Position numbers and translations under genes: made by a program. A stretch of 59,350 nucleotides of DNA from Candidatus Kaelpia aquatica (GTDB lineage: Bacteria; Omnitrophota; Gorgyraeia; Kaelpiales; Kaelpiaceae), in the NCBI GenBank assembly GCA_030765335.1, contig JAVCCU010000014.1, forward strand, positions 1 through 59,350, given 5' to 3'. Below the pieces are notes generated by a model. That model searched no databases, was not told the DNA's origin, and saw only the letters and a program-made list of their open reading frames with translations. Position 1 is the first letter of the stretch. The number at the start of each line of letters is the position of its first letter. Shown here in pieces: positions 3,159 through 50,005 of the stretch.

Positions 3159-3602
3159 TCAACCAGGCAACGCTATCATAGAGAATATCATAACAAACAA
3201 CGCCACTGTCTCTATAATTCCTAGGACAAGCATATAGTTAGCAAAACCTTTGCCGGTCTCTGCCAATGCATCACAGGCCCGTGCAGCAGCTTTACCCTGC
3301 ATATAGGCAGAGCATCCCATCGCCAATCCAGCCATTAATCCTATTGTCATCTGCATTACAGTTGACCCTAAATCATAAGGTAGATTAGCAGCCTGAATTT
3401 TATTCCTCAATATAAAACCGTAAAATATCTGAGTCAATGGCGCACCCACAAAAGCTATCATCATAAAAGGAGCTGTTTTGTTCTGAGAGAACGCCTTCTT
3501 CCAGGCTCCTATAGCTGCCATACCAGCTACACCTATACCTAAGGCAGAACCTACAGCAGTAAGTCCCAATGAAGCATTTAAATCTCCTAGACCCTGTATC
3601 AT
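3159..3602 (-). CDS. ntpK: V-type ATPase subunit K (membrane rotor ring), Na+-type signature
   Basis: 147 residues with four membrane helices, the double-hairpin form of the rotor ring subunit that carries ions through the membrane sector. The ion-carrying carboxylate is Glu131 in GIIETVALF in helix 4; the first hairpin lacks one, as is usual for V-type K. Thr57, Gln58 and Tyr61 in PLTQIFYG, Gln102 in YMQGKAAA and Glu131 line up with Thr64, Gln65, Tyr68, Gln110 and Glu139 of Enterococcus hirae NtpK, which bind Na+. This suggests a Na+-translocating ring. It is the last ATPase gene of the operon, 12 bases after subunit I. Confidence 0.93.
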   Translation of the reverse strand: MIQGLGDLNASLGLTAVGSALGIGVAGMAAIGAWKKAFSQNKTAPFMMIAFVGAPLTQIFYGFILRNKIQAANLPYDLGSTVMQMTIGLMAGLAMGCSAYMQGKAAARACDALAETGKGFANYMLVLGIIETVALFVMIFSMIALPG

Positions 3603-3614
3603 CTCTTGACCTCC

Positions 3615-5387
3615 TTATTCCTCAAACGGTTTATAACTATTTCCCTTCCACTCCAAATCAAGATGGGTTGAAAACTCAAGAACATTTAATCTCACCCCAT
3701 GGACAAGAACAGACATCAAACCTAAAACTATATTCAGAGAGTGTCCTAGCAAAACAATTGCTATAGACGATATAATAGCAGGAACACTGTTAAATCCTAT
3801 ATTTGCAGCCATACTGTTAAAAGTAATTGCAATCATTACGGTAGCATAACCAACAGCAAAAAGACGTAGGTAAGACAAGATATCGGCGAAGAAGTTTATA
3901 ATATCAAAAGGAAGATCTAATAACGACGATATTATTCTCTTTAAAATACTAGTTTTAGGCTTTGAAAATATCATTACCATAAGAGCTCCAAGAATAACAA
4001 ACATAGGCATTGTTTGTGGAATCTGAAAATTCAAAACTACACCTCGAGTCAGCAGAAACATGGACCATCCAATGGCAATCCAGCCTAAATGACTGAAAAA
4101 CTTAATAGAATTTGCAAAGCGCAGAGCTGCAACAAGATGAGCAATAGTGAGATGAGCAAACCCTAAAATAAAGCAGAGATAGATAAAATTATTTTGATTG
4201 GCATCAACAAAACTATTGAGACCAGATACCATGAAAAAATTAAAAAATGATACCTGAGAAATCCTCTCCACTCCAAACCAATTTCCTGTTATAGCTCCCC
4301 AGACAATAGTAGCAGAACTAAGGCAGTAGATAAGCTGCAGGATCTGTTTGGATATATTTTTATTTTTAATCTGAATTAAAAGAGCAGCTATTAAAAAAAC
4401 AAGCCCGTAACCCGCATCACCTATAATCATAGCAAAGAATATGCTGAAGAACATAAGGAACCAGAAGCTAATATCATACTCCTCATATCCAGGTATAGTA
4501 TCCATAAGCTTAAAGACAGGATCTATTATCCTTAACCAGCGAGGATTATGTATTAGAGTAGGTACTTCGCTAGGATTGTCTGGATCCCTCAAAAGCAATC
4601 CCCAGCTCTCCTTTTCTGCTAAAACATGTAGTATTTTAACTTTATCAATTGGAATAAATCCTTCTAAGAAACTAAAGCCCTCGCAGATATTAATCTCTGA
4701 ATTAACCTGAGCAAACTCAAGCTCTTTACCTAGAACAGATTTATATCTATTAAAGCAATTTTTAAAACCAGAGAGATGTGTCAATCTCTGACCTATCTCT
4801 TGAATCTGCTTCTCTATATCAACCCCCTCCTTCTCAAGCATGCCATACTCTCTATTTGGAATCTGCTCAGGAGTAATAGGCAGAGAACTTTTACTATCAG
4901 CAATCAAAGCAATATAGAACCTAGATTTGTCTTTTTTAATTAAATAAGTGTCTTGTTTTACAGCTATATTCTTAAACTTTTTTTTATCTACAATGTATAG
5001 CTCCAGATTTATTCCATGCTCTCTAATTTTAGATAGAGAATCTAAAGAGAATATACCCCAATCTCTATACCAATCCAAACCTCTTCTTACTGCAGCTAGC
5101 TTATTCTGCAAATCATCTCTATCTCTACCTAAAAAATTTATCTCCTCTATAAATTTAGGAATTTTGCTTTCAGAGCAATCTTTAACACTCTCGGAGTTAA
5201 AGCTAGATATCAACTCTATAGCTTTTTTAAAGAGAGAGACTTTATCTTCCAAGAAAGATACCTCTCCAGAAGAGAGAAGCTTCTTTCTCTTTATATGCAT
5301 AGCGCCTAATGATCTCAAGTTTTCAAGAGCCCTCTTTCTGTCCCTGTTTGAAATCAGCAAAGCTGCCTGCTTCATCTTAACTATCAT
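3615..5387 (-). CDS. ntpI: V-type ATPase subunit I (stator, membrane a-subunit equivalent)
   Basis: 590 residues. Residues 1-300 are a soluble, partly coiled-coil peripheral-stalk domain. Residues 305-575 contain about seven membrane helices that form the ion half-channels next to the K ring. The essential arginine of the family is Arg508 in ILSYLRLFAVGYA, followed by the family signature GHSLNIVLGLMSVLVHGVRLNVLEF near the C-terminus. The start codon is 2 bases after the stop of subunit D. Length and domain order are normal for bacterial and archaeal subunit I. Confidence 0.93.
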   Translation of the reverse strand: MIVKMKQAALLISNRDRKRALENLRSLGAMHIKRKKLLSSGEVSFLEDKVSLFKKAIELISSFNSESVKDCSESKIPKFIEEINFLGRDRDDLQNKLAAVRRGLDWYRDWGIFSLDSLSKIREHGINLELYIVDKKKFKNIAVKQDTYLIKKDKSRFYIALIADSKSSLPITPEQIPNREYGMLEKEGVDIEKQIQEIGQRLTHLSGFKNCFNRYKSVLGKELEFAQVNSEINICEGFSFLEGFIPIDKVKILHVLAEKESWGLLLRDPDNPSEVPTLIHNPRWLRIIDPVFKLMDTIPGYEEYDISFWFLMFFSIFFAMIIGDAGYGLVFLIAALLIQIKNKNISKQILQLIYCLSSATIVWGAITGNWFGVERISQVSFFNFFMVSGLNSFVDANQNNFIYLCFILGFAHLTIAHLVAALRFANSIKFFSHLGWIAIGWSMFLLTRGVVLNFQIPQTMPMFVILGALMVMIFSKPKTSILKRIISSLLDLPFDIINFFADILSYLRLFAVGYATVMIAITFNSMAANIGFNSVPAIISSIAIVLLGHSLNIVLGLMSVLVHGVRLNVLEFSTHLDLEWKGNSYKPFEE

Positions 5388-5389
5388 TC

Positions 5390-6016
5390 TTAAACCTCTA
5401 TCCTATCATCTCTGGTTTTTAATTTAGATTTTGCAATTTTACCTCTTACAACTCCAGACATAGATAGATCACCTAAAAAGACGTTTATCTTCTTTATGTT
5501 TTTTGCTGCTTCAGGAATCTTGACCTTCTCAAATAGATTGACACGTTGAGTCGTAACTCTCAGCTCCTCCTTAAGAACCTCTCTCGCCCTCTCTAAGACC
5601 AAGCTTTTTGCTTTTAAAGTAAGTACATCTCTGAAGACCCCTATGCCTCTATCAACCCAAAGAGGTGTTAGGTATAGATCGTAGGGGTGTTCTTTGAATT
5701 TTATATCTTTAAAGAGAGGGATATCAATACCAGCTATATTACCTTTTATTGCAGTTACTCTATCAACTTTAAAGAGATTCTCAATCCCAACATCTTCTCC
5801 GAAAACATCTATCCAGGCATTTAGTGATATTAAAAAAGACTCCATTTCTTCTCTGACCTTATTTAAATCTTGATGGTTTTTAATTATCTCTAACTGTAAC
5901 TGCTGCTTCTTGAGCTGCAGCATTGGAAGGTATTTATTAAAACGCTTGAACGCTTCTTTTTGTTTCTTTAATTCATTCTTCGTCAATTTTAACTTTACCA
6001 CAATCAGCCTCGCCAA
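5390..6016 (-). CDS. ntpD: V-type ATPase subunit D (central shaft)
   Basis: 208 residues, close to the usual length. It begins [16 protein letters not shown], typical of the N-terminal helix of subunit D, and ends with a second long helix. The two helices form the coiled-coil shaft that turns inside the A3B3 head and connects to the K ring. The middle (about 80-130) is the short globular insert. The start overlaps the end of subunit B by 13 bases, implying coupled translation. No separate subunit F is seen in the operon, as in chlamydial V-ATPases. Confidence 0.9.
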
Positions 6017-7296
6017 AACTCCTTAATTAATTCGGTCCGAAACGGCACCTCTTCAGGGCTAAAACATCCCGAAAGAATCTCCCAGCCCTTATCTAAGGCA
6101 GCTTCTAAAGGTATATTTACAGTTAAATCCATCAATTCCTTTTCAAAGATAACTCCATACTTAAGAAGCTTTTGATCCCAAGCACTCATCTTAAAGCCCA
6201 TATCCCTTTTCTCTTCTGTCTCCCTGTAGTCAGCATACAGCTGTATCATGCCATTCATAATAGCTCTATGATCAACACGAGTCTTATCATTAATCTGCTG
6301 CTTCAATCGGCTTAAGGAGCCAAAAGGTTCTATTCTGCCATTACGAAGATAGAGCTGACCTTCGGTAATATAACCTGTATTATCCGGCACCGGATGGGTG
6401 ACATCGTCGCCTGGCATAGTCGTGACTGCAAGTATCGTTATAGAACCGCTATCTTCAAAATCTACAGCCTTCTCATATCTGGCTGCCAATTGACTATATA
6501 GATCTCCTGGATAACCTCTATTTGAAGGAACCTGCTCCATGGTAATGGCAATCTCTTTAAGCGCATCGGCAAAGTTGGTCATATCTGTAAGCAGGACTAG
6601 TACATCTTTGCCTGATAAAGCAAACTTTTCAGCTACAGCCAAAGATATGTCCGGTATCATAATGCTCTCCACTACCGGCTCAGAAGCGGTATGTACAAAA
6701 AAAATCGACCTGCTTAAAGCACCGCTGTTCTGCAACGTGTTCTTAAAAAACATATATTGATCAAACTTTAACCCTATGCCGCCTAAGATAATCATATCAA
6801 CCTGAGCCTGTATTGCAATTCGAGCTAAAAGCTCATTGTAAGGCTCGCCGGAAACTGAAAATATAGGGAGCTTTTGAGAGACGACAAGGGAATTAAAAAT
6901 ATCTATCATAGGTATATTGGTCCTTATCATACGATTGGGTATCTTTCTCTTTACAGGATTGACCGTAGAGCCGCCTATCTCAATATTGCTTCCGGTTATA
7001 GCAGGCCCTCCGTCTTTTGGCCTGCAGCTGCCATCAAAGACTCTTCCAAGCATATCCTCTGAAAAAGGAACCTGCATAGGATGAGAGAGAAAACTAACTT
7101 CATCAGCGGTAGATATACCTCGACTTCCAGAAAAGACTTGAAGAGAGACATTATCTCTATCTAAGCTTATGACTTGAGCAAAAGACTTTCCCTTTTTAGT
7201 ATTCACCTCAGCCAGCTCGTGGTAACTAATACCTTTAGCCTTTACGGTGATGACATCTCCTACAATACTATCTATCTTGCTATACAGCCTCTTCAT
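6004..7296 (-). CDS. ntpB: V-type ATPase subunit B (non-catalytic head subunit)
   Basis: 430 residues, the regulatory head subunit that alternates with A. It lacks a Walker A loop, as expected, and carries B-subunit landmarks: [62 protein letters not shown] in the nucleotide-interface region (quoted only as a landmark from about residue 235), and [20 protein letters not shown]. The start overlaps subunit A by 17 bases. Confidence 0.95.
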
Positions 7297-9028
7297 CTCT
7301 CTTTAAAACCTCTCTTTCAATAAATTCATCTACCTCTTTCTCTTTGCTCTTAAATTCCAGAGATTCCCACTCAGTATAATTCCAGTCCAAAAACATTTGG
7401 CGTAATTTAAAAAACATACCTCTTAATTCATCTTTTGTTTTTAAATTAACTTTGACTCTAAGAATATAATCAACCTTTGAGAAGACATAATCCTGGCGCT
7501 CTAGGGGTGTAGCAGCGTCTACTTCATCATAACCATTCTGCTGCAAATAGACATAGTCTAAGAATTCAGTTTTCAGATATATTAAGAAATCCTCATTTGT
7601 CACACCTTCTTCGCCAACAACCTTCATCATCTGAGAGACTTCATCGCCTTTAAATATTGCCTCTTTGGCATAAGCTACTTTATCTTCTGATATAAAGCTC
7701 TTGTATTTAGACCAACTCTCCAAAGGAGATATAGAAGGATACTTTCTGGCATCGGACCTCTCGCGAGATAGACCATGAAAAGCTCCAACAACCTTTAATG
7801 TTGACTGAGTAACAGGCTCTTCAAAATTACCACCGGCTGGAGATACTGTCCCCCCTATTGTAAGAGACCCTCTCTCTCCACTTAGCAGCTCAACTTCACC
7901 AGATCTTTCATAAAAAGCAGCTATGCGCGATTCTAGATAAGCCGGGAAAGCCTCATCGCCAGGAATCTCTTCCAACCTACCTGAGACCTCCCTCATTGCC
8001 TGAGCCCAGCGTGAAGTGGAGTCAGCCAAAAGCAGTACATCTAAACCCATCTGCCTATAATACTCTCCAAGAGTTGCCGCAGTATATACTGAAGCATCTC
8101 TGGCAGCAACTGGCATAGAAGAAGTATTGCAGATGATTATTGTCCTGGCCATCAGGGATTTGCCAGTCCTATCATCCTTAAGCTTAGGAAACTCTCTTAA
8201 CGTCTCAACAACCTCACCCGCCCTCTCACCGCAGGCAGCAATAATTACAATATCAACCTCAGCATATCTTGAAGTTAATTGCTGTAATACTGTTTTTCCA
8301 GCCCCAAAAGGACCGGGAATACAATAAGTACCGCCTTTGGCCACAGGAAAGAAAGTATCAATTATTCTAATACGTGTAGTCAAAGACTCAGTAGTCTGAA
8401 GTTTATTCTTATATGAGGTAATAGGGGCTCTTATAGGCCAACGAAAAGACATGGTGACATCAATGCTCTTACCTAATCTATTTTTTACTGTAGCTATAAC
8501 ATCTCCTACGCTATAGTCACCCTCAGGCTTCAGGCTTTCAAGAGTATGCTCTCCGATAAAATCAAAAGGCACCATTATGTAGTGCTTAAAAATCTCTTCT
8601 TCTACATAGCCAACATAGTTTCCGGCCAATAATAAATCTCCCTCTTTAGCAAGAGGGGTAAAATGCCATCTTTTTTTAAGATCTAAAGCTGCTAGATCAA
8701 CTCCTCGAGGCAAAAAAAATCCATACTCATCAGCAAGAACATTTAAAGGGTTCTGCAAGCCGTCATATATATTACCTAGAAGGCCTGGACCAAGTTCAAC
8801 CGAAAGAAGCTGATTACTGAATTCAACCTCATCTCCTACCCTAAGGCCTTTAGTATCCTCAAAAACCTGCATATATGCCAACTCTCCCCTGATCTTAATG
8901 ACTTCGGCCTTAAGACGACCATCCCCTTTTAAAACATAGCCTAACTCATTCTGCATAATATGACTCTGTGGTTTAACCGTTATCATGTTTCCGCTTATAG
9001 ATACAATACTGCCTTTATTAACTTTCAT
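7280..9028 (-). CDS. ntpA: V-type ATPase subunit A (catalytic)
   Basis: 582 residues. The Walker A loop is GPFGAGKT at 239-246, the catalytic Glu region follows in CGERAGEV, and the [19 protein letters not shown] stretch is the A-subunit signature. The N-terminal beta barrel (1-75) and the non-homologous bulge insert (about 100-200) that distinguishes A from F-type beta are both present. Hydrolyses or makes ATP in the A3B3 head. Start ATG overlaps the DUF2764 gene by 11 bases, so the operon is translated in a chain. Confidence 0.96.
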
Positions 9029-9527
9029 AGACTATCGCCTCATAACTAATATTTGAAATCTTATCAAATAACTCTTCCCCTCTCTCTTTGTCAAACTGGG
9101 AAATCTTATCTAAAATCTGAAGCTTATAGAAATAAAGCACTGCGCTCTCTAAATCAAAATGATGGTATGATTCAAGCTGATCAACGAAGCTCCATCTCAA
9201 ATAGAATATCCCTAGCTCAATTTTAAGAGGATCTGTATCAGCTAAAATCGCCTTTAATATTTTATCGGTTATGGATTCTAGATCTCCTTCCCTAAATTTA
9301 ACAATGTTATCTCTTAGTTTATATTCAAAACTCTTGTAATCTCTAATGATACCTCTATCACTATCTTTGATATAGATATCATCTATATCGGCTTTTTTTA
9401 AAATCTTGAAATCTGCAAAGCTCAACCACTTGACTGCCTGTTCTAGGAAATAGTCACTGCTGATATAATTCTTGCTATCAAAACTCAATAGAGGAAGCTG
9501 AGCGATCAGATAATAATACTTATCCAT
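9018..9527 (-). CDS. DUF2764 family protein of the V-ATPase operon
   Basis: 169 residues starting MDKYYYLIAQLPLLSFDSKN, the pattern of DUF2764 proteins, which sit between the E and A genes in V-ATPase operons of Chlamydia, spirochaetes and Bacteroidetes. The rest is mostly helical and acidic. Its position suggests it stands in for subunit C, the collar that joins the D shaft to the K ring, because no recognisable C gene is present; that role is inference. Overlaps both neighbours (8 bases with E, 11 with A). Confidence 0.8.
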   Translation of the reverse strand: MDKYYYLIAQLPLLSFDSKNYISSDYFLEQAVKWLSFADFKILKKADIDDIYIKDSDRGIIRDYKSFEYKLRDNIVKFREGDLESITDKILKAILADTDPLKIELGIFYLRWSFVDQLESYHHFDLESAVLYFYKLQILDKISQFDKERGEELFDKISNISYEAIVYES

Positions 9528-10131
9528 TTAAGCTTTTATTCACTATCTCTGCAATCTCTTTATTGAGAAATACAGCGATAACATCGGCTATACCCTGATC
9601 TGAAAAGTCATAATGCAGGTCTTCGCCTTTTACTCCGATTCTGAAACCTTTCTCCAGCCCCGGATGAACCTTAACCTCAAAACCAGCTGCTATTTTCTCT
9701 TTAAATTCATCGATCAGCAGGTCTCTTAAGGAGTCTCTATCTTGCTCTGAAGTTAAAATCTCAATAGAGTCATCTTCCCCCGGCTTCCAATTAGATAAAA
9801 TCTGGACAATCATATCCTTAACTGCCTGAGGACTAAGAGACTTTGAAACATCTCTCTTTAGCAGGCTATCAAACACAACGATTACCTTCTCTCTTAAACT
9901 GATAATTGAATCTCTTACTGCTTGCTCTATTGCTGCCCTAGCTACATCCGCATATTTATCAGACTGAGATTTTGCATCTTGGACAACAATCTCGGATTTA
10001 GATTTTACTTCTTGTAAGATACGGACAGCCTCTTCTTTGGCTTTGGCTATAATTTTATCAGCCTCCTTCTTAGCCTCCTGAACACCCTCTTTTTTTATTT
10101 TTTCAATTAATCTATCTAATTCGACTTCCAT
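9520..10131 (-). CDS. ntpE: V-type ATPase subunit E (peripheral stalk)
   Basis: 203 residues, first gene of the operon. Residues 1-90 are a long charged helix rich in Lys, Glu and Ala (KKEGVQEAKKEADKIIAKAK), which would form the stator coiled coil. The C-terminal half is the globular domain that binds the head, with the typical end region SDQGIADVIAVFLNKEIAEIV. A good ribosome-binding site GGAGG lies 6 bases before the ATG. No G/H partner gene is found next to it. A TATAAT hexamer about 35 bases upstream, at the pyrE terminator, may belong to the operon promoter but lacks a clear -35. Confidence 0.88.
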   Translation of the reverse strand: MEVELDRLIEKIKKEGVQEAKKEADKIIAKAKEEAVRILQEVKSKSEIVVQDAKSQSDKYADVARAAIEQAVRDSIISLREKVIVVFDSLLKRDVSKSLSPQAVKDMIVQILSNWKPGEDDSIEILTSEQDRDSLRDLLIDEFKEKIAAGFEVKVHPGLEKGFRIGVKGEDLHYDFSDQGIADVIAVFLNKEIAEIVNKSLNG

Positions 10132-33625: not shown

Positions 33626-34945
33626 TTAATTTAAATAATTGAGATACCCTGATATTTGCTCTCTCGAAACAATAGACTCCCGCATCCCTGCTAAATCACC
33701 TTGCTCACGATAAATATCATAGGCCTCTTTGTAAGCCGCCCTGGCTTCCTGATATACTTTCAACATCTCCTCTTCTGCATCTATCTCTGTAATCTCCTGA
33801 GCATGCTCTCTTAGCATATCACCCCGCATTACCCAAAGAGAGGCCTCCTTCATGCGATCTACTGCTTCTCCTGTCTGATATGCATATCTTCTTCTATTCA
33901 TTGCAGCCCAAAGAATAGACCTAGAAGCTAAGCCATACTCTCCTCTATCTCTATTGATTTCAAATGCTCTTTCAGAAGACTCTGAAGCTTTTTCCCAGTC
34001 TTTTACTAACTCATAACTACGCGAAGCTAAGGCAAATGATTTTGCAGCACTATCTCTCTCATCAATATTTTTCTCTCCACCAGCTCGATAAATCTCTAAA
34101 CATAGTTCAGCTGCCCTAAAACTTAAATCAGCGCTAGTGTAAGTCAAATCCGAATCGCCACCTCTCTCCGCTGACAAACCCTCGTATCTATGCGCAGCTC
34201 TTTTATAAAACTTAATAGCTATACCATAAGCTCCCAACTTATCATATAAAAAGGCTTCCATCTCCTCACACTGTGCTAACTGAATACCACCTTCATTATC
34301 TTGAAAATACGCCCTGGCTTTATTAAATCTGATTAAAAATTCTTGCATAAAACTACCCTCGAAAATAACCCCCTCCATCCCTTGGTAATAGAGGACCATC
34401 GAAGATGCTAGAGTTCGAAAATTATTTATATCTATATCGGCAATCTCATCACAAGTCATATCATACATAATGCTTGATACCTGAGCCATGGAGCTATTTT
34501 GACTGTTTATATCCCCCATTAACAAATAACATCTGGCTATTTTTGTAAAACAGATCGCACTAAGAATCTTATCTTCAACGCTAAGAGCGATATCCCTGCA
34601 TTGAATCAATAATTCCTGGGCTTCTTCAATGCAGATATTTACCTCACTATTATAATCTATCTTTTGATATAGTGATGCTGCTTGGACTAGTATACCTGCC
34701 CTCTCAAGAGGATCGCTAAGATAGCCTTGAGATCTAATAGCATTTTTTAAATACAATAAAGCTGCCGTATAATCTCCTGAGCCGACAACTTCCTCAGCCT
34801 GTTTTATTAGGCTGCCTGCTTCGTTGAAAATTTCAGCCTGAGAGAGCTGGAGCCTATTGACTCTACGGGCTAAGACAATCGGAGATAGAAATAGTGAAGA
34901 GATAAATATAATACTAATTGAACTTACTAGACAACCCCACCTCAT
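33626..34945 (-). CDS. Exported TPR-like helical repeat protein, function unknown
   Basis: 439 residues. A signal peptide (1-26, cut near VLARR) is followed by repeated helix pairs of tetratricopeptide type: EEVVGSGDYTAALLYLKNAI, a KFYKRAAHRYEGL repeat, ASRSYELVKDWEKASESSERAFEI and EARAAYKEAYDIYREQGD. Repeated Ala and aromatic positions every 34 or so residues support TPR/SNAP-like folding. It probably scaffolds protein contacts outside the inner membrane. No Shine-Dalgarno lies before the ATG and a -10 box ends six bases upstream, so the mRNA may be leaderless. Confidence 0.8.
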   Translation of the reverse strand: MRWGCLVSSISIIFISSLFLSPIVLARRVNRLQLSQAEIFNEAGSLIKQAEEVVGSGDYTAALLYLKNAIRSQGYLSDPLERAGILVQAASLYQKIDYNSEVNICIEEAQELLIQCRDIALSVEDKILSAICFTKIARCYLLMGDINSQNSSMAQVSSIMYDMTCDEIADIDINNFRTLASSMVLYYQGMEGVIFEGSFMQEFLIRFNKARAYFQDNEGGIQLAQCEEMEAFLYDKLGAYGIAIKFYKRAAHRYEGLSAERGGDSDLTYTSADLSFRAAELCLEIYRAGGEKNIDERDSAAKSFALASRSYELVKDWEKASESSERAFEINRDRGEYGLASRSILWAAMNRRRYAYQTGEAVDRMKEASLWVMRGDMLREHAQEITEIDAEEEMLKVYQEARAAYKEAYDIYREQGDLAGMRESIVSREQISGYLNYLN

Positions 34946-42903: not shown

Positions 42904-45900
42904 CTACCACCACCAAGGGAGAAAATCATAACCGGCAGTATTAAGAGTTACAAGATCCTGATAAAGGTTGACGCTGCAGAATGACAACGAACCGCATGTT
43001 GACATATAAGTATTTAAATCAATAGTAGTCTTTTCAAAGAGAGATGCAGGCATAAAACCATCGTCTTGAGGTTCAATACATACCCAATTATTAATATCAT
43101 ATTTACCAACATCAAATGGCAGATCGCCAACATAGATAGCATTAAAAGCATGTCCTATGCTACCATCTCCCATATTACCAAGACTATTAGCCATACGTAT
43201 AGGCAGCCCATAGCTTAAGCTCTCATAATAAGGGTTAATTCCACCTTCTAAATCATAGAGCTCATCTCTACCATCAACAAAATCATCCACTTCATATATA
43301 AGAGAGTTTATCATTAACTGTTTAGCAAAATGGCGACATAGGAACCCATAGCCAAAAGATGTTATATATGTTCGTTCATCTGTAAAATCACCTTTTAAAA
43401 CCAACTTAAGATACTCTATTCTTTCACTTTTATTTTTAAGATTATACCACCAGCCTTCTTGAGACGGGATACCTGTATTTAAAATAGCAGCCATCTCTAA
43501 CTTAGAGACGCCATCACCTAGTAAAGAATCTTTCATTTTAGATCTCACTATTAAAGTATTACCGCTACTTTTAAATAAGTACTCCTTTAAAAATTCTGCA
43601 TCTTTTACATAATATAGAGCAACAGCGCGCGTTAAAGAATACCTATAATTAGAACTCAGTACATTTAAACTGTCTAAACCTCTTCTATTCTGAGATTCCA
43701 CCAAACTCTTTAAATTTCTTAAATCAATGCTAGAATCAACCTCGCTAGGATCAAAAGCTGTTATTATATCAACTGCTAAATTTTGCAAAACTCTATTTTC
43801 ATTATTCAATAATCTACTCAAAACAGGAATAAAGGAAGGGTTGCCAACTCTAATTAAAGCATTCTTTATATTATCTACATAGTAATTATTGCTTATAACC
43901 TCAGGTAACATAAGAGCATCTATTAAAGGGTTAACAGAGAGATCTTTTATTTTAGCTAGAGCTTCAATGCCTAATTCGACAAGTTCGCTGTCCCCGCTGC
44001 TTAATATGTCTTTAACAATAGGCTCTACTGCTGATTTACCAATGGAATATAGAGTTTTAAAAGCAAGTTCTCTTGCTGTTGAATCATTGCTTATCAACAA
44101 TCTTCTAATTAAAGGCTCTACCACAGAGGAACTGCCATATGCAGCCATAATATCAGAAGCTATACCAGCAGCCTCTGAGCCAGCATTATTAAACAAGAAA
44201 TCAATTAAAGAATAATCTGCTTGCAAGCCTAAATATAAAAATGCGTTTCCTAAATAAAATCTACTAACATTACCTTTATTTTCTATTGCTGCAGCAACAA
44301 AACGGTCTGTAATACTCTTTGGTAAAACCATTGCAGCCAAAGCTTGAGCAGCCATATCTCTATCTAATCCTTCTAATTCTTCAATCTCAAAACACACTCG
44401 TATTAAAGCTTCTGCTGAACGCAAATCTGCTGCATCCATCAAATCCATTGCTGCATCAAAACGAATATAGCCCTCATCAGCGTAAATAATATCAGAAATA
44501 TCCTGAGCTAACTCCAAATCGTATTCTGTACCCAATTCTCCTATTTGTTGCATAATAAAATGTCTCTGTTCACTGCTGGACTCGTCAATCATCATTGCTA
44601 TCAGCTGATTAACATTATCAGACTCTGGAATATTTGAGCTCCCCGCAGGATCTTGCTCTAAAGATCTAACAGCTGCATCTATCGTTCTACCATTAACAGA
44701 AACCTCTACTCTGCCATCGACTTCATTATATGCTAAAGAATAGTTTTTATCCCAAATTACTGAAGACAATAGGACTGTCTCTATCGTTCTAGATGCACTA
44801 TCCATGTAGTCAATCCTATTCCCATCATCACTTATAAGTATATCCATAACATTATCTAAGTGTTTCTCATAACGAGCCACTAACACTGAAGAGTCGCCAC
44901 TAACTAGCTCAATAGAGCTGTTATCTAGTTCAATCTGACTAGGAATATTACCACTAGGAAGTGTAGACCTGCTAGCCCATACTTCTTTAACAATATTATT
45001 TGTCTCTTTATTATAATAAGTCTTTTCAAAATCAACTGATCCAGCATCTACATTGAAACCTTGGGAAAGATCCCCTGCTTGCCATTCTACTGTATTTCCA
45101 TCTGAATATACTTCCAATACTAGATCCCCATAAACATCTGTAGCATATTCTACAGAATACAACCTATCCCATGCTTTTAATCTAACTACCATATCTAATA
45201 TCTCTACTGAGTTCTTGGTATAATATCCTGTTATCTTATCGGGATCATCTCTGTCATAACTAGGTGTAACTACACCATCAATAACTTTTAACTCAGTTAG
45301 AAACAAGCCGTCTACTAGATTTAAATCAAACGTTATACCGTCTACAGTAATTTTAGATGGTATCTGAGATCTGTCTATATCATCAGACAGAACCTGCCAA
45401 CCACCTATAATAATACATTGATTATCTGCATCATAATAAGGAGTAGTATTGGATGTTGCCGTAAAATCTAAAAGTAGGTCCTCAGGATCATCATCCATTA
45501 ATCTATCTATATGATTAATAATACTTGAGTGTTGTTCAGAAAATAATAGAGTAGCAACTGAATTTAAATTTAAAGTTTGATCATTTAAATCGACAAGTAG
45601 CATACCTTCTTTACTCATAATATTTCTATAATCCAAAGTATAAGACTTATCCCACTCGGTAAATTTGACAAAATTACCGCCTCCATCTGATGTACGATAG
45701 CTAACTATCTCACTGTCTCCATCTCTGTCATAGTCGCCTAATTCTATTTCAATAACATCATTTATCCTTTTCTGCTCTTTAAGTCTAAACTTATATGTCT
45801 CATCTCCTATTTTCTTTTCACGTATAACCTTATTTACTTGATCCATATTCATACCAAGCAACATCGCTTCCATCTCTACTCGCAAAGCCCATAACGGATC

Positions 45901-46191
45901 ACAACACTCCCAAATATTTTGAACCAAGCTACCGCTAAGATCATCATAATAAAGCTCATAGCGCAGATCACCCTCTATGGGAGCACTCTCGATATTCCAT
46001 TCATCATTCCATCCATCAGAGACCATGCTTAAAGTATTTTCTCCTTGATAAGATCCTATGCCCTGAGATACAGGAATAATGCCAGAACTCTGACTACCAA
46101 CAGGACCAGTAAACCCAACCACTGTTGATTGGAAGATAAATATACATATAAATGCTGTAGCAAAAATTGATTTTCTGTTTTCTATTATCAT
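42904..46191 (-). CDS. Exported HEAT-repeat protein with C-terminal transglutaminase/papain-like domain
   Basis: 1095 residues, first of three large exported proteins. Signal peptide 1-26. Residues 140-510 hold three copies of a beta unit marked by WDKSYTLDY (180), WDRLYSVEY (341) and WDKNYSLAY (480), each followed by strands; DYDRDGDSE (153-161) is a calcium-loop-like DxDxDG. About 525-860 is helical with HEAT-type repeats (SVVEPLIRRLLISND, SAVEPIVKDILSSGD, DLSVNPLIDALM). The end resembles a Cys-His peptidase or transglutaminase fold: Cys952 in GFLCRHFAKQL, His1014 in IGHAFNAIYVG and an acidic residue in WVCIEPQDD. It ends with three Trp. I do not recognise the whole protein. It probably works at the cell surface or periplasm. 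Confidence 0.75.
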   Translation of the reverse strand: MIIENRKSIFATAFICIFIFQSTVVGFTGPVGSQSSGIIPVSQGIGSYQGENTLSMVSDGWNDEWNIESAPIEGDLRYELYYDDLSGSLVQNIWECCDPLWALRVEMEAMLLGMNMDQVNKVIREKKIGDETYKFRLKEQKRINDVIEIELGDYDRDGDSEIVSYRTSDGGGNFVKFTEWDKSYTLDYRNIMSKEGMLLVDLNDQTLNLNSVATLLFSEQHSSIINHIDRLMDDDPEDLLLDFTATSNTTPYYDADNQCIIIGGWQVLSDDIDRSQIPSKITVDGITFDLNLVDGLFLTELKVIDGVVTPSYDRDDPDKITGYYTKNSVEILDMVVRLKAWDRLYSVEYATDVYGDLVLEVYSDGNTVEWQAGDLSQGFNVDAGSVDFEKTYYNKETNNIVKEVWASRSTLPSGNIPSQIELDNSSIELVSGDSSVLVARYEKHLDNVMDILISDDGNRIDYMDSASRTIETVLLSSVIWDKNYSLAYNEVDGRVEVSVNGRTIDAAVRSLEQDPAGSSNIPESDNVNQLIAMMIDESSSEQRHFIMQQIGELGTEYDLELAQDISDIIYADEGYIRFDAAMDLMDAADLRSAEALIRVCFEIEELEGLDRDMAAQALAAMVLPKSITDRFVAAAIENKGNVSRFYLGNAFLYLGLQADYSLIDFLFNNAGSEAAGIASDIMAAYGSSSVVEPLIRRLLISNDSTARELAFKTLYSIGKSAVEPIVKDILSSGDSELVELGIEALAKIKDLSVNPLIDALMLPEVISNNYYVDNIKNALIRVGNPSFIPVLSRLLNNENRVLQNLAVDIITAFDPSEVDSSIDLRNLKSLVESQNRRGLDSLNVLSSNYRYSLTRAVALYYVKDAEFLKEYLFKSSGNTLIVRSKMKDSLLGDGVSKLEMAAILNTGIPSQEGWWYNLKNKSERIEYLKLVLKGDFTDERTYITSFGYGFLCRHFAKQLMINSLIYEVDDFVDGRDELYDLEGGINPYYESLSYGLPIRMANSLGNMGDGSIGHAFNAIYVGDLPFDVGKYDINNWVCIEPQDDGFMPASLFEKTTIDLNTYMSTCGSLSFCSVNLYQDLVTLNTAGYDFLPWWW

Positions 46192-46335: not shown

Positions 46336-47703
46336 CTAGGGTCTGCTGGAAGCTTGAAGATGCTGCAGCTCTAACCGTCTAATCTGGTAGATCTTAAATA
46401 ACTGATCTAACAAGTGGATGCTAGGCTCAATATTTCTTCTCACATTAAGTCTCCAAAATAGAGACATAATTTGATTATGGACTATATTAGACTTCGAGCT
46501 ACTAGATAATTCTATTCCCAAATCTATATCTTTTACAGCCTGCGGACTAACGCCAAATCTTAACATTAACATCTTTTTTTGCTTATCACTAAAAGCAGAC
46601 AATGATTCTTCTAGGTTCACAACTAAGTTATTTAACTCTGCAACATAGAGCTCGTAGATGCTACTTAGAGCTTCACTTCTATCTCTGTCTCTAATTAACA
46701 TCTCAATAGGTAAAATACCTGAATCTGGATAATCAGATTTCTGCCTACCCTCTACTACCCACTCATAAGGCAAATGGACATAAATAAGATATGGCAAATA
46801 GGGCACAAACTCACCCTCTCTAAGCCTGTCATACCAATTCCCATATATGTCTCCCATAAGAGTCATCCCTATATGCAGCAAATCTCTATCTTCTTCTGTA
46901 TCATAACCTGCATATTCTACAAAAACTTCCTCAACCAACCTTGTTCTTAAATCTGGTTTTTCACCAAAAAGATTCCACAAACTATTAAAACCTGCCTTTG
47001 AAACTTCTTCCTCAGTAAGAGTTATAGAGACTGTATTTTCAGATAAATCGTAGCGAATGTCAGTCTTTTCTCCTTTTGATATTTTTATTTCCCTAAAACT
47101 TGCATATAATTCTGTCAACCCGCAAGCATGTAAAGCAGCCAAGAATTTAGCTCTAAAAAGCTCTCTGGATTCAGTTTCTAAGCTAACATCTAAAGCAATA
47201 TTTATATCTCTAAATGCATCCATGCTTAACAAGGTATTGATTTCTTGTTTTACTGTAGGAGCAACATCTATTAGTTCTTGAGATTCATACTGTGCTCGAT
47301 AAAGCTCCTTTACTGCAACTAGAAGCATTATATTATCCCTGCTATTAAAAGTATCTTTGAAATGATATTTATATGGCGACCAGCCTTTACTTCTACTGAG
47401 AAACATACCTTCTTCAACTTCTAGAACTCCAAACTCAACCAAGCATTTTAATCTCTGGTTAGCTGTTCCTTGTGCCCACCCAAACAGAGACTGCACATCT
47501 TCTCTGGTAAATTCAGTTTGATCATAATTATCAAATAGAGCTATTGCAAATCCATGCATAGTGGATGGGGTCCTAACAACCTTTATTCTTCTTGTTGTAT
47601 CTATATTTCTAAAATAAAAATTAGCATAACAATTAAATAAAAGAGGTAGAGCTAGGCAAATTAATAACCCTTCTTTAAAAAATCTATTTTTATCTATTTT
47701 CAT
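46336..47703 (-). CDS. Signal-anchored protein with winged-helix-like and sigma-region-4-like segments, unknown
   Basis: 455 residues. Residues 1-10 are basic and 11-31 form one membrane helix or signal peptide (EGLLICLALPLLFNCYANF), so most of the protein would be outside the membrane. Residues 48-105 look like a winged helix: FTREDVQSLFGWAQGTANQRL then KCLVEFGVLEVEEG. Residues about 369-428 look like sigma-70 region 4: FSDKQKKMLMLRFGVSP, KDIDLGIELSSSSKSNIV and a final basic helix. The middle part is not recognised. It lies 37 bases after the XRE-repeat gene, so the two probably share a transcript. Whether it reaches DNA is unknown. Confidence 0.65.
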   Translation of the reverse strand: MKIDKNRFFKEGLLICLALPLLFNCYANFYFRNIDTTRRIKVVRTPSTMHGFAIALFDNYDQTEFTREDVQSLFGWAQGTANQRLKCLVEFGVLEVEEGMFLSRSKGWSPYKYHFKDTFNSRDNIMLLVAVKELYRAQYESQELIDVAPTVKQEINTLLSMDAFRDINIALDVSLETESRELFRAKFLAALHACGLTELYASFREIKISKGEKTDIRYDLSENTVSITLTEEEVSKAGFNSLWNLFGEKPDLRTRLVEEVFVEYAGYDTEEDRDLLHIGMTLMGDIYGNWYDRLREGEFVPYLPYLIYVHLPYEWVVEGRQKSDYPDSGILPIEMLIRDRDRSEALSSIYELYVAELNNLVVNLEESLSAFSDKQKKMLMLRFGVSPQAVKDIDLGIELSSSSKSNIVHNQIMSLFWRLNVRRNIEPSIHLLDQLFKIYQIRRLELQHLQASSRP

Positions 47704-47740: not shown

Positions 47741-50005
47741 CTATGGTTGCAGCTGAAGAGGATCTAAATCTAAAATTGAACTTAAAGCCTCCACCAATGT
47801 CTGTGGCAAAGGAACAACACCTCTTTCGTATACTCCAGAAATTAAACGAGAAGCATGGCTACCGATATCAAATTCGCTATCTACTATTATTCTCCCAAGC
47901 TCTATCAGTGAATACCCTTTAACCAGGCGAGCTAATCTCAATCTTTCTCCAATAATAACTTGCTTACCCCACCTTTTAAACTCTAAAGGCGATATAAGTA
48001 TTTTTAAATTTTCTGTTTCTAAAGCCATATCCTTTTCACTGCCAGTAAGTAATTCCCATGCATCCATATTAAGCATCTCAGCAAAGGTTGGAAGATTAAT
48101 TCTGATATCAAACTCTCCTCTTTCTAAACTCATCAGGGTGTAGGAACTCCACCCCACTAAATCTGCTAAATCTTTAGACGATAACCCTAACTCTTCTCTC
48201 CTAGACTTAATTCTAGCTCCTATAAAACTTACCGGTCCAATATGCTCTATCTCTAATATTGCTACATCTGGAATTATTACTTCCTGCAATAGCTCGATGT
48301 TGATATTAATTTCAAAAGCTAAATCAGCTATATTGTCTTGAGGCACATTTTTTCTTCCTCTCTCCCAAGCACTAAGCTCTGAAGGACTAACACCTAACGT
48401 TTCTGCTAGCTCTTCCTGTGTTCTTCCCTGTGCAATCCTACTTAAAATAATCCTTTCTCCAATAATTCTGTTCTCTCCCCATAAAGCAATCTCTATAAGT
48501 GGAATCCTTGGAATAATATTTTCTACCTCTAAAGCCTCTTCTCTAAGCATGCCTTGAAGCAAATACCAAACATCTATATCAAGCGCCTGAGCAATAACAG
48601 GAGCATTGCGAGGAGAATAAATATTCTGATCACTTTCCAGTCCATAGACAGTATTTAATTGATTACTTGCCATCTGTGACAATCGCTCCGGAGTTAACCC
48701 TCTAAATTCCCTTACTAAAGTTATTCTTTCACCAAAAGTTAAAGAATTTCTTAACTGCAACAGAAGATCAGAATCATCCGCTGAGACTATAAAAATAGGA
48801 GTTTTAATCTCTTTAAAACTATCTGCTTCTTGGAATATACCTAATTGTCTAAAAAGCTTGGTAACTATAGCTTCTTTTTCTACCAAAGAAGCTACGTCCG
48901 ATCCACTTAGTTCTTCTTTTAGCTGTCCCCAAAGCAAGTTAGCAGCCTTAAGCCAATCTCCTTCTTGATTATAAAATTCCCAAAAACTTCTATTAATACC
49001 TGAAACTCCACCATTAAAAGCTTGACATATTTTTCTTGGATTCTCCAATGAAGATACTGATTCTCCAAAAAATTTAGTTAGTACACTATAAGCTGTAAAC
49101 TCAGAACTTTCAAATAAACCAATATAAGCCACAAATGTTGGATTAGCATATAAAGAACTGAAGTCTAGATCTAAGAAATCTGGCAATACCATTGATTCAT
49201 CACTCAATCTTTCTTGTAATGCAATTGTATTTCTAATAAAGTTAGTGGCTAAATCTTTAAAAACAATAAATGCATCCTCTGTTTTCTTGTCAGCTTGAAA
49301 TTCTAGAAGACTATTCATTATTTGGGCTTTATATCTATCAAATCTCTCTAAATAAAGAGCTATCTGCCTATCTTCATTAGCTAAAACTGTCAATATTTCT
49401 CTTTGGCTAGCAACCTCTTCCATTTTGGTTGAAATATAACCATAGCCATAAGTTAATACTTTTTCCATTGCCTCTACTTTCTTCTGATGAAGTAAAACTC
49501 CAGCCTTATATTTCTCTAAGCGATTATAATTACTAATATGATGAGTTAATTCTTCGTTAAAATCACCGCCTATCAATTCTATTTTTCCTTTTAAAAGATC
49601 TAAAATTTGTAAACAACTATAAGTGAAAGTCCCCTTATAACTAGAAGCATATCTTAGCATTTGACCGTTTTTGCTTGGGAAAAACACCATATAAGCCTGA
49701 GCTTGGCCTGTTACTTCATCGCTCATCCTTAAGGTAAGAAATATTTTAGATTCTTCCAAGTAAGGGTTAGATAAATTTTGCTCAAAATGAACTGCTTCTA
49801 TTACAATTTGACGCCCTTCTTCTATGAACTTAATAGTTGGTATTGATGCTCCGTTTAATATCGCTTCGACATTAGCCAAAGCTACTTCTGGTGTAACATA
49901 AACTTCCATTATTCTTCTGCTAAAAGCAGTTTCAGGATAAAATAAAACTAACCCCATTATTGCAAAATAAAAGAATGTAATATTTTTTAACCTAAGATAC
50001 TTCAT
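47741..50005 (-). CDS. Exported protein with four tandem XRE-type helix-turn-helix domains, unknown
   Basis: 754 residues. Residues 1-29 look like a signal peptide (MGLVLFYPETAFSRR cut region). Residues 30-400 are mostly helical and unrecognised. Four XRE/Cro-like domains follow, at about 424-486, 515-575, 595-655 and 685-752; each starts (F/I)G(E/A)R(I/L) and contains the classic helix pair, clearest in the second: RTQEELAETLGVSPSELSAWERGRKNVP, and in the third: LSSKDLADLVGWSSYTLMSLERGEF. The fourth has a short insert. DNA-binding domains behind an export signal are contradictory unless the signal is an anchor with the domains inside, or the domains bind something else. The promoter contains a palindrome. 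Confidence 0.75.
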   Translation of the reverse strand: MKYLRLKNITFFYFAIMGLVLFYPETAFSRRIMEVYVTPEVALANVEAILNGASIPTIKFIEEGRQIVIEAVHFEQNLSNPYLEESKIFLTLRMSDEVTGQAQAYMVFFPSKNGQMLRYASSYKGTFTYSCLQILDLLKGKIELIGGDFNEELTHHISNYNRLEKYKAGVLLHQKKVEAMEKVLTYGYGYISTKMEEVASQREILTVLANEDRQIALYLERFDRYKAQIMNSLLEFQADKKTEDAFIVFKDLATNFIRNTIALQERLSDESMVLPDFLDLDFSSLYANPTFVAYIGLFESSEFTAYSVLTKFFGESVSSLENPRKICQAFNGGVSGINRSFWEFYNQEGDWLKAANLLWGQLKEELSGSDVASLVEKEAIVTKLFRQLGIFQEADSFKEIKTPIFIVSADDSDLLLQLRNSLTFGERITLVREFRGLTPERLSQMASNQLNTVYGLESDQNIYSPRNAPVIAQALDIDVWYLLQGMLREEALEVENIIPRIPLIEIALWGENRIIGERIILSRIAQGRTQEELAETLGVSPSELSAWERGRKNVPQDNIADLAFEININIELLQEVIIPDVAILEIEHIGPVSFIGARIKSRREELGLSSKDLADLVGWSSYTLMSLERGEFDIRINLPTFAEMLNMDAWELLTGSEKDMALETENLKILISPLEFKRWGKQVIIGERLRLARLVKGYSLIELGRIIVDSEFDIGSHASRLISGVYERGVVPLPQTLVEALSSILDLDPLQLQP

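Follow-up and report, generated by a model that had tools for sequence, protein, structure and literature searches.

A predicted exported protein with four tandem XRE-fold units in Candidatus Kaelpia aquatica (Omnitrophota)

The window analyzed here, a stretch of 59,350 nucleotides from Candidatus Kaelpia aquatica (contig JAVCCU010000014.1), encodes on its minus strand a protein of 754 amino acids (positions 47741 to 50005) that is almost certainly both exported and XRE folded. The open reading frame (ORF) call, the ATG start, and Pfam matches define a four-XRE protein of exported type, and a first-pass annotation had already noted its signal-like N terminus and four XRE-type helix-turn-helix (HTH) domains. 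The best explanation, which has about an even chance of being correct, is that it is a secreted member of a modular, leader-sharing secretome, likely aimed at other cells, in which the XRE array would act as a multivalent binding module.

Start and signal peptide

The start of the ORF is certain. The open frame comprises 757 codons, and a TAA in the same frame precedes the ATG by four codons, so that no longer start is possible and the wrong start that could have undone the annotation is eliminated. An artifact of this kind, or a decayed gene or assembly chimera, might be suspected from the orphan N-terminal domain and the lack of a same-genus orthologue described below; the 754-codon frame is nevertheless intact, and its flanks are syntenic with those of three relatives, which largely refutes this explanation and leaves it extremely improbable.

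The N terminus reads MKYLRLK-NITFFYFAIMGLVLFYP-ETAFS followed by RRIM. With an n-region charge of +3, 17 uncharged residues, and an AxS cleavage site, residues 1 to 29 (MKYLRLKNITFFYFAIMGLVLFYPETAFS; 49919 to 50005, minus strand, as for all parts of the protein) would by their anatomy form a textbook signal peptide, an assignment that also draws on some 50 proteins of the lineage sharing the same junction. The RRIM tetrapeptide (residues 30 to 33; 49907 to 49918) stands directly after the predicted cleavage site and corresponds to the lineage junction motif RR[IV]K. A Tat substrate was considered and rejected, as the arginine pair stands after the hydrophobic core and not before it, with an n-region of MKYLRLK.

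The same segment could instead be an uncleaved anchor of a cytoplasmic regulator whose C terminus is held inside by RRIK. A motif such as RR[IV]K past the hydrophobic core does resemble a cytoplasmic retention signal, and over the leader set described below the average charge is +2.4 for the n-region and +1.5 for the first 15 residues of the mature part, so that topology is not fixed by charge alone. The short uncharged core (mean of 16 residues, here 17), the helix breakers, the AxA site conserved at the junction, and the acidity of the XRE units speak against an anchor, which is improbable. The membrane-anchored regulator and the nucleoid tether suggested in the first-pass annotation fit poorly with a 17-residue uncharged core and a signal-peptidase-like site common to about 50 proteins.

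Fold and charge of the XRE units

The whole protein matches the Pfam families HTH_3 (1e-19) and HTH_19 (6e-18). A whole-genome search retrieved separate HTH_19 matches at 48551 to 48733, 48290 to 48460, and 48041 to 48220, and only three other XRE domains in this genome. Unit U1 (residues 422 to 487; 48545 to 48742) matches PF12844 by itself at 8.9e-5, and U2 (residues 514 to 575; 48281 to 48466), the most canonical unit (WERGRKNVP), does so at 8e-8, over the cut-off. U3 (residues 593 to 657; 48035 to 48229) matches PF12844 at 3.2e-5 and the 434 repressor at an E value of 9e-4. U4 (residues 683 to 754; 47744 to 47959) is divergent, with a nine-residue insertion in the aligned HTH region, and was assigned from a structure model and Foldseek. 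Because single-sequence AlphaFold2 prediction of the whole array gave a pLDDT of 35.9, U4 alone was modeled, with its three sister units as alignment. The resulting four-row alignment of the protein's own units yielded five helices at a pLDDT of 87.9. Its top Protein Data Bank (PDB) matches are XRE/lambda-repressor-like proteins (C.AhdI, BldD, lambda cI, P22 c2, and SinR), with Foldseek probabilities mostly of 0.95 to 1.0 and TM scores of about 0.6 to 0.7, but weak E values of 0.2 to 1.5. Sequence matches and the five-helix model together identify the XRE/Cro-C1 HTH fold, and the possibility that the units are not HTH domains can be set aside.

The four units share this fold and its sequence signature with the 434 and lambda repressors, C.AhdI, BldD, and SinR. 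Known XRE regulators, however, are cytoplasmic and carry one basic domain, whereas this protein has four units, an export signal, and an acidic array. The core net charges of U1 to U4, a proxy computed from sequence, are -2, -4, -3, and -2, whereas 29 single XRE domains from the class have +4.2 ± 2.5 (Mann-Whitney p = 0.0013; p = 0.0016 for the HTH alone), the controls being top-scoring family matches that may favor canonical, basic domains. The C-terminal 342 residues carry a net charge of -18, and a basic DNA-binding surface was not found. To call the protein an "XRE regulator" would mislead, since its units are acidic and the ordinary XRE domains of the class are basic. The array probably serves for contacts other than those with operator DNA. 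Among the four suggestions of the first-pass annotation, XRE folds reused for protein contacts agrees best with these acidic units.

An exported DNA binder, akin to the envelope DNA-capture protein of the first-pass annotation and capturing extracellular DNA or binding the DNA of a neighboring cell through at least one XRE unit, has to be weighed against this. The recognition region of U2 (TQEELAETLGVSPSELSAWERGRKNVP) is still canonical, linkage of four HTHs could provide avidity, and the units of a comparable protein of another class (G424, below) are neutral to basic. All four units here are net negative, in the core and in the HTH (p of about 0.001 to 0.002), and the C-terminal 342 residues are acidic by net charge, which makes this alternative unlikely.

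The remainder of the mature protein, an acidic domain of residues 34 to 414 (48764 to 49906), is an orphan in similarity searches, with no relative in the PDB or in 384 genomes of the class. Weak matches in two genomes (G106 and G070) were dismissed as chance, one being an isoleucyl-tRNA-synthetase-like frame end and the other a repeat protein.

A shared leader with unrelated mature parts

When this genome was searched with a profile made from six N termini, six more exported ORFs were retrieved, and every one of them, including those with weak E values, had the same junction. The 28-residue junction profile (A5) gave 24, 17, and 13 matches in this genome and two relatives of its family (G000, G001, and G003, family f1), which puts the set at about 25 exported proteins here. 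It gave one to two matches in two incomplete relatives, and in 24 genomes from other families the count was zero to four (mean, about 1). A regular-expression scan of 373 kb from other families returned six matches, none convincing, and no recurrence was seen for another leader motif, the ALSPESRL of G173. From selected stretches of the genomes, 50 ORFs with this RR leader were collected, which is a lower bound.

The junction consensus is S-N-P-A-x-A followed by R-R-[IV]-K. Alanine stands at position -1 in 44 and at -3 in 28 of the 50 ORFs, with S/N/P at -6 to -4 and lysine or arginine at +4 in 35; the regular expression preset positions -1 and +1 to +3, and the free evidence lies at -6 to -3 and +4. 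The mature parts are similar in 16 of 1225 pairs, and leaders of unrelated proteins are up to 23/26 (88%) identical. At the DNA level, blocks of 30 bases are identical at 21 to 30 positions throughout the leader, and often for some way upstream of it as well, and identity drops to background (about 10 of 30) right past the junction. Judged by these comparisons, the leaders evidently move independently of the mature parts. The genes often occur in runs of three to six (G000:C7:8530-14844, G000:C26:791-5053, G001:C2:3272-9590, and on contigs C20 and C71 of G003), often near contig ends, and these runs look like effector-type islands.

The 754-residue protein has the small-x-small site followed by RR[IV] that characterizes the set (AFS, RRI). 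In a blind test with all leaders of the window left out of the profile, it ranks 42nd of 339 (E = 0.0028) and outscores all ORFs that lack the junction. It lacks near-identical leader DNA shared with an unrelated paralogue, a trait of several members and not of all. It is very probably a member of the set.

Domains found behind the RR leader include GAPDH, HATPase_c, 6PGDH, GNAT, methyltransferase, sigma-70 region 4, TPR, and HEAT, the last two being among the commonest. By eye, SCTTN (GAPDH), VKSVHNGIEY (6PGDH), the N and G boxes of HATPase, the GNAT loop, and methyltransferase motif I are present. The housekeeping GAPDH is a separate gene of 342 amino acids. In two cases (G000:C26:57498-60107 and G000:C46:487-2793), GAPDH or 6-phosphogluconate dehydrogenase domains stand behind an RR signal peptide together with about 300 to 380 extra residues.

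XRE arrays in other genomes

Searched with a two-unit profile, the 384 genomes of the class contain strong tandem arrays (E ≤ 1e-14) in eight, namely, this genome and seven others with frames of at least 1,762 amino acids, the two shortest of which end at contig ends. One frame of 57,756 amino acids carries nine XRE units. Giant frames are mosaics of cytosol-type domains; the length of a 70,450-residue frame in G230 is unreliable, as its first part runs through masked N stretches. Giant frames of two genera in one family, L098 (G358:C2:150001-170000) and L049 (G041:C5:20001-40000), contain nine and seven XRE units in tandem, joined by similar linkers (GTxEPD, NPPD), and the array is conserved between them. 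In the class and phylum, tandem XRE arrays are confined almost only to giant frames. Tandem XRE units (up to nine) and other cytosol-type domains are features that very long frames in this class and phylum have in common with the giant ORFs described for Omnitrophota (PMC10066038), for which the available part of that report does not mention XRE arrays. At 2.3 kb, the ORF studied here is not a giant ORF, for which a frame of more than 20 kb is taken.

The closest counterpart in layout belongs to another class of the phylum. G424 encodes a closed frame of 753 amino acids with a signal peptide and an N-terminal domain of about 360 residues, and the C-terminal half of this protein holds four XRE units. 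It differs in that its N-terminal domain is an unrelated DUF7790, it has no RR junction, and its units are neutral to basic (0, +5, +2, and +4). An exported-looking gene of 706 amino acids without a Pfam match lies directly downstream (L172:77-2194, minus strand; G424:C16). A 7,637-residue frame in G393 has about five XRE units and an exported-looking N terminus, and an exported-looking frame of 1423 amino acids in G075 (L091:3975-8243, minus strand; G075:C176) shows matches to HTH_23, HTH_8, HTH_50, and HTH_31 directly past its signal peptide. Exported multi-HTH proteins thus recur, with different leaders.

Genomic context

The gene lies in a variable slot bounded by an NAD(P)HX-dehydratase-like gene (50094) and an EF-G-like gene (42806), a flanking order conserved with three relatives. 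Three exported-looking genes occupy the slot here, and in the three nearest relatives it holds one different exported gene with an RR leader, of about 320 amino acids, which was rejected as a homologue because it shows no homology beyond the leader. No orthologue was found in the same genus, and promoter and terminator scans at the locus gave nothing clear.

The adjacent gene (46336 to 47703, minus strand; 455 amino acids) has a signal-like N terminus followed by TT and RRIK. Its leader was not recovered by the blind profile, but the homologous protein of the sister species (G001:C43:144573) carries an RR leader and a sigma-70 region 4 domain. The third gene of the slot (42904 to 46191, minus strand) encodes an exported-looking protein of 1095 amino acids with HEAT repeats and a leader not of the RR type. 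The C-terminal part of this protein (GFLCRHFAKQL ... GHAFNAIYV) shows by eye a transglutaminase-like Cys-His pattern that Pfam does not confirm. Leader searches also identified an RR-leader protein of 439 amino acids (SPIVLA, RRVN) at 33626 to 34945 (minus strand), and a V-type ATPase operon lies at 3159 to 10131 (minus strand).

Discussion

The explanation favored here would begin with export by the Sec route and removal of the leader at the AFS/RRIM junction. The mature 725 residues, comprising the lineage-orphan N-terminal domain and the four XRE-fold units, would then act outside the cytoplasm of the producer. The protein would be a divergent member of a lineage-specific secretome that combines one leader type (AxA, RR[IV]K) with unrelated, often cytosol-type mature parts. 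Several domains in these parts have intact motifs and need NAD(P), ATP, acetyl-CoA, or S-adenosylmethionine, which makes action inside or on another cell, be it prey or host, likelier than action in the periplasm; the direction of the secretome toward other cells is as plausible as not. The XRE array would bind a partner molecule multivalently, and this partner is probably a protein because the DNA-facing side of the units no longer carries positive charge.

Several points weigh against this explanation. Basic residues directly past the cleavage site are unusual for Sec export. Exported enzymes can be surface bound and inactive, so that intact motifs are no proof of activity. No leader in the set is more than 29% identical to that of the 754-residue protein, which also has a modest score in the blind test (E = 0.0028), so that this protein itself was not recently leader swapped. 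Finally, the units of the comparable G424 protein are not acidic, and DNA binding may therefore persist in relatives.

The protein could also be an envelope scaffold on the producer's own surface or in its periplasm (coat, adhesin, or S-layer-like), where the XRE units would serve as general-purpose helical elements for binding or packing, as TPR and HEAT would in sister proteins. The prominence of TPR and HEAT in the leader set and the XRE arrays of giant frames are consistent with this, and giant Omnitrophota proteins are proposed to be coat proteins or adhesins in the part of the literature available (PMC10066038). A scaffold leaves intact cofactor-dependent enzymes behind the same leader unexplained, and it is a possible, though not a probable, role.

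A bolder extension of secretion toward other cells is that a recombining AxA-RR[IV]K leader cassette is put on cytosol-type genes that are unrelated to one another (enzymes, regulators of the sigma-like and XRE kinds, and repeat scaffolds), that RR[IV]K marks a second delivery step into other cells, and that the four-XRE protein, once secreted, works there as a regulator mimic or decoy. This is doubtful. Oomycete effectors likewise combine a conserved leader with a diverged mature part, and are eukaryotic. Gall-midge salivary proteins, as far as the accessible portion of their description goes, also join a conserved leader to a variable mature part, but they too are eukaryotic (PMC2955719), and nothing seen here points to machinery in common with these repertoires.

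XRE is among the commonest regulator folds, and tandem, acidic, exported copies of it show that the fold has taken on a different function. Given the protein of matching layout in another class, exported XRE arrays seem to have arisen, or to have been retained, on more than one occasion. In the available parts of two reports, Omnitrophota are described as host dependent or predatory (PMC10066038; PMC13153191), and the leader-sharing set, with the RR[IV]K junction as a short signal open to testing, offers a handle on the possible assembly of effector repertoires by such uncultured bacteria.
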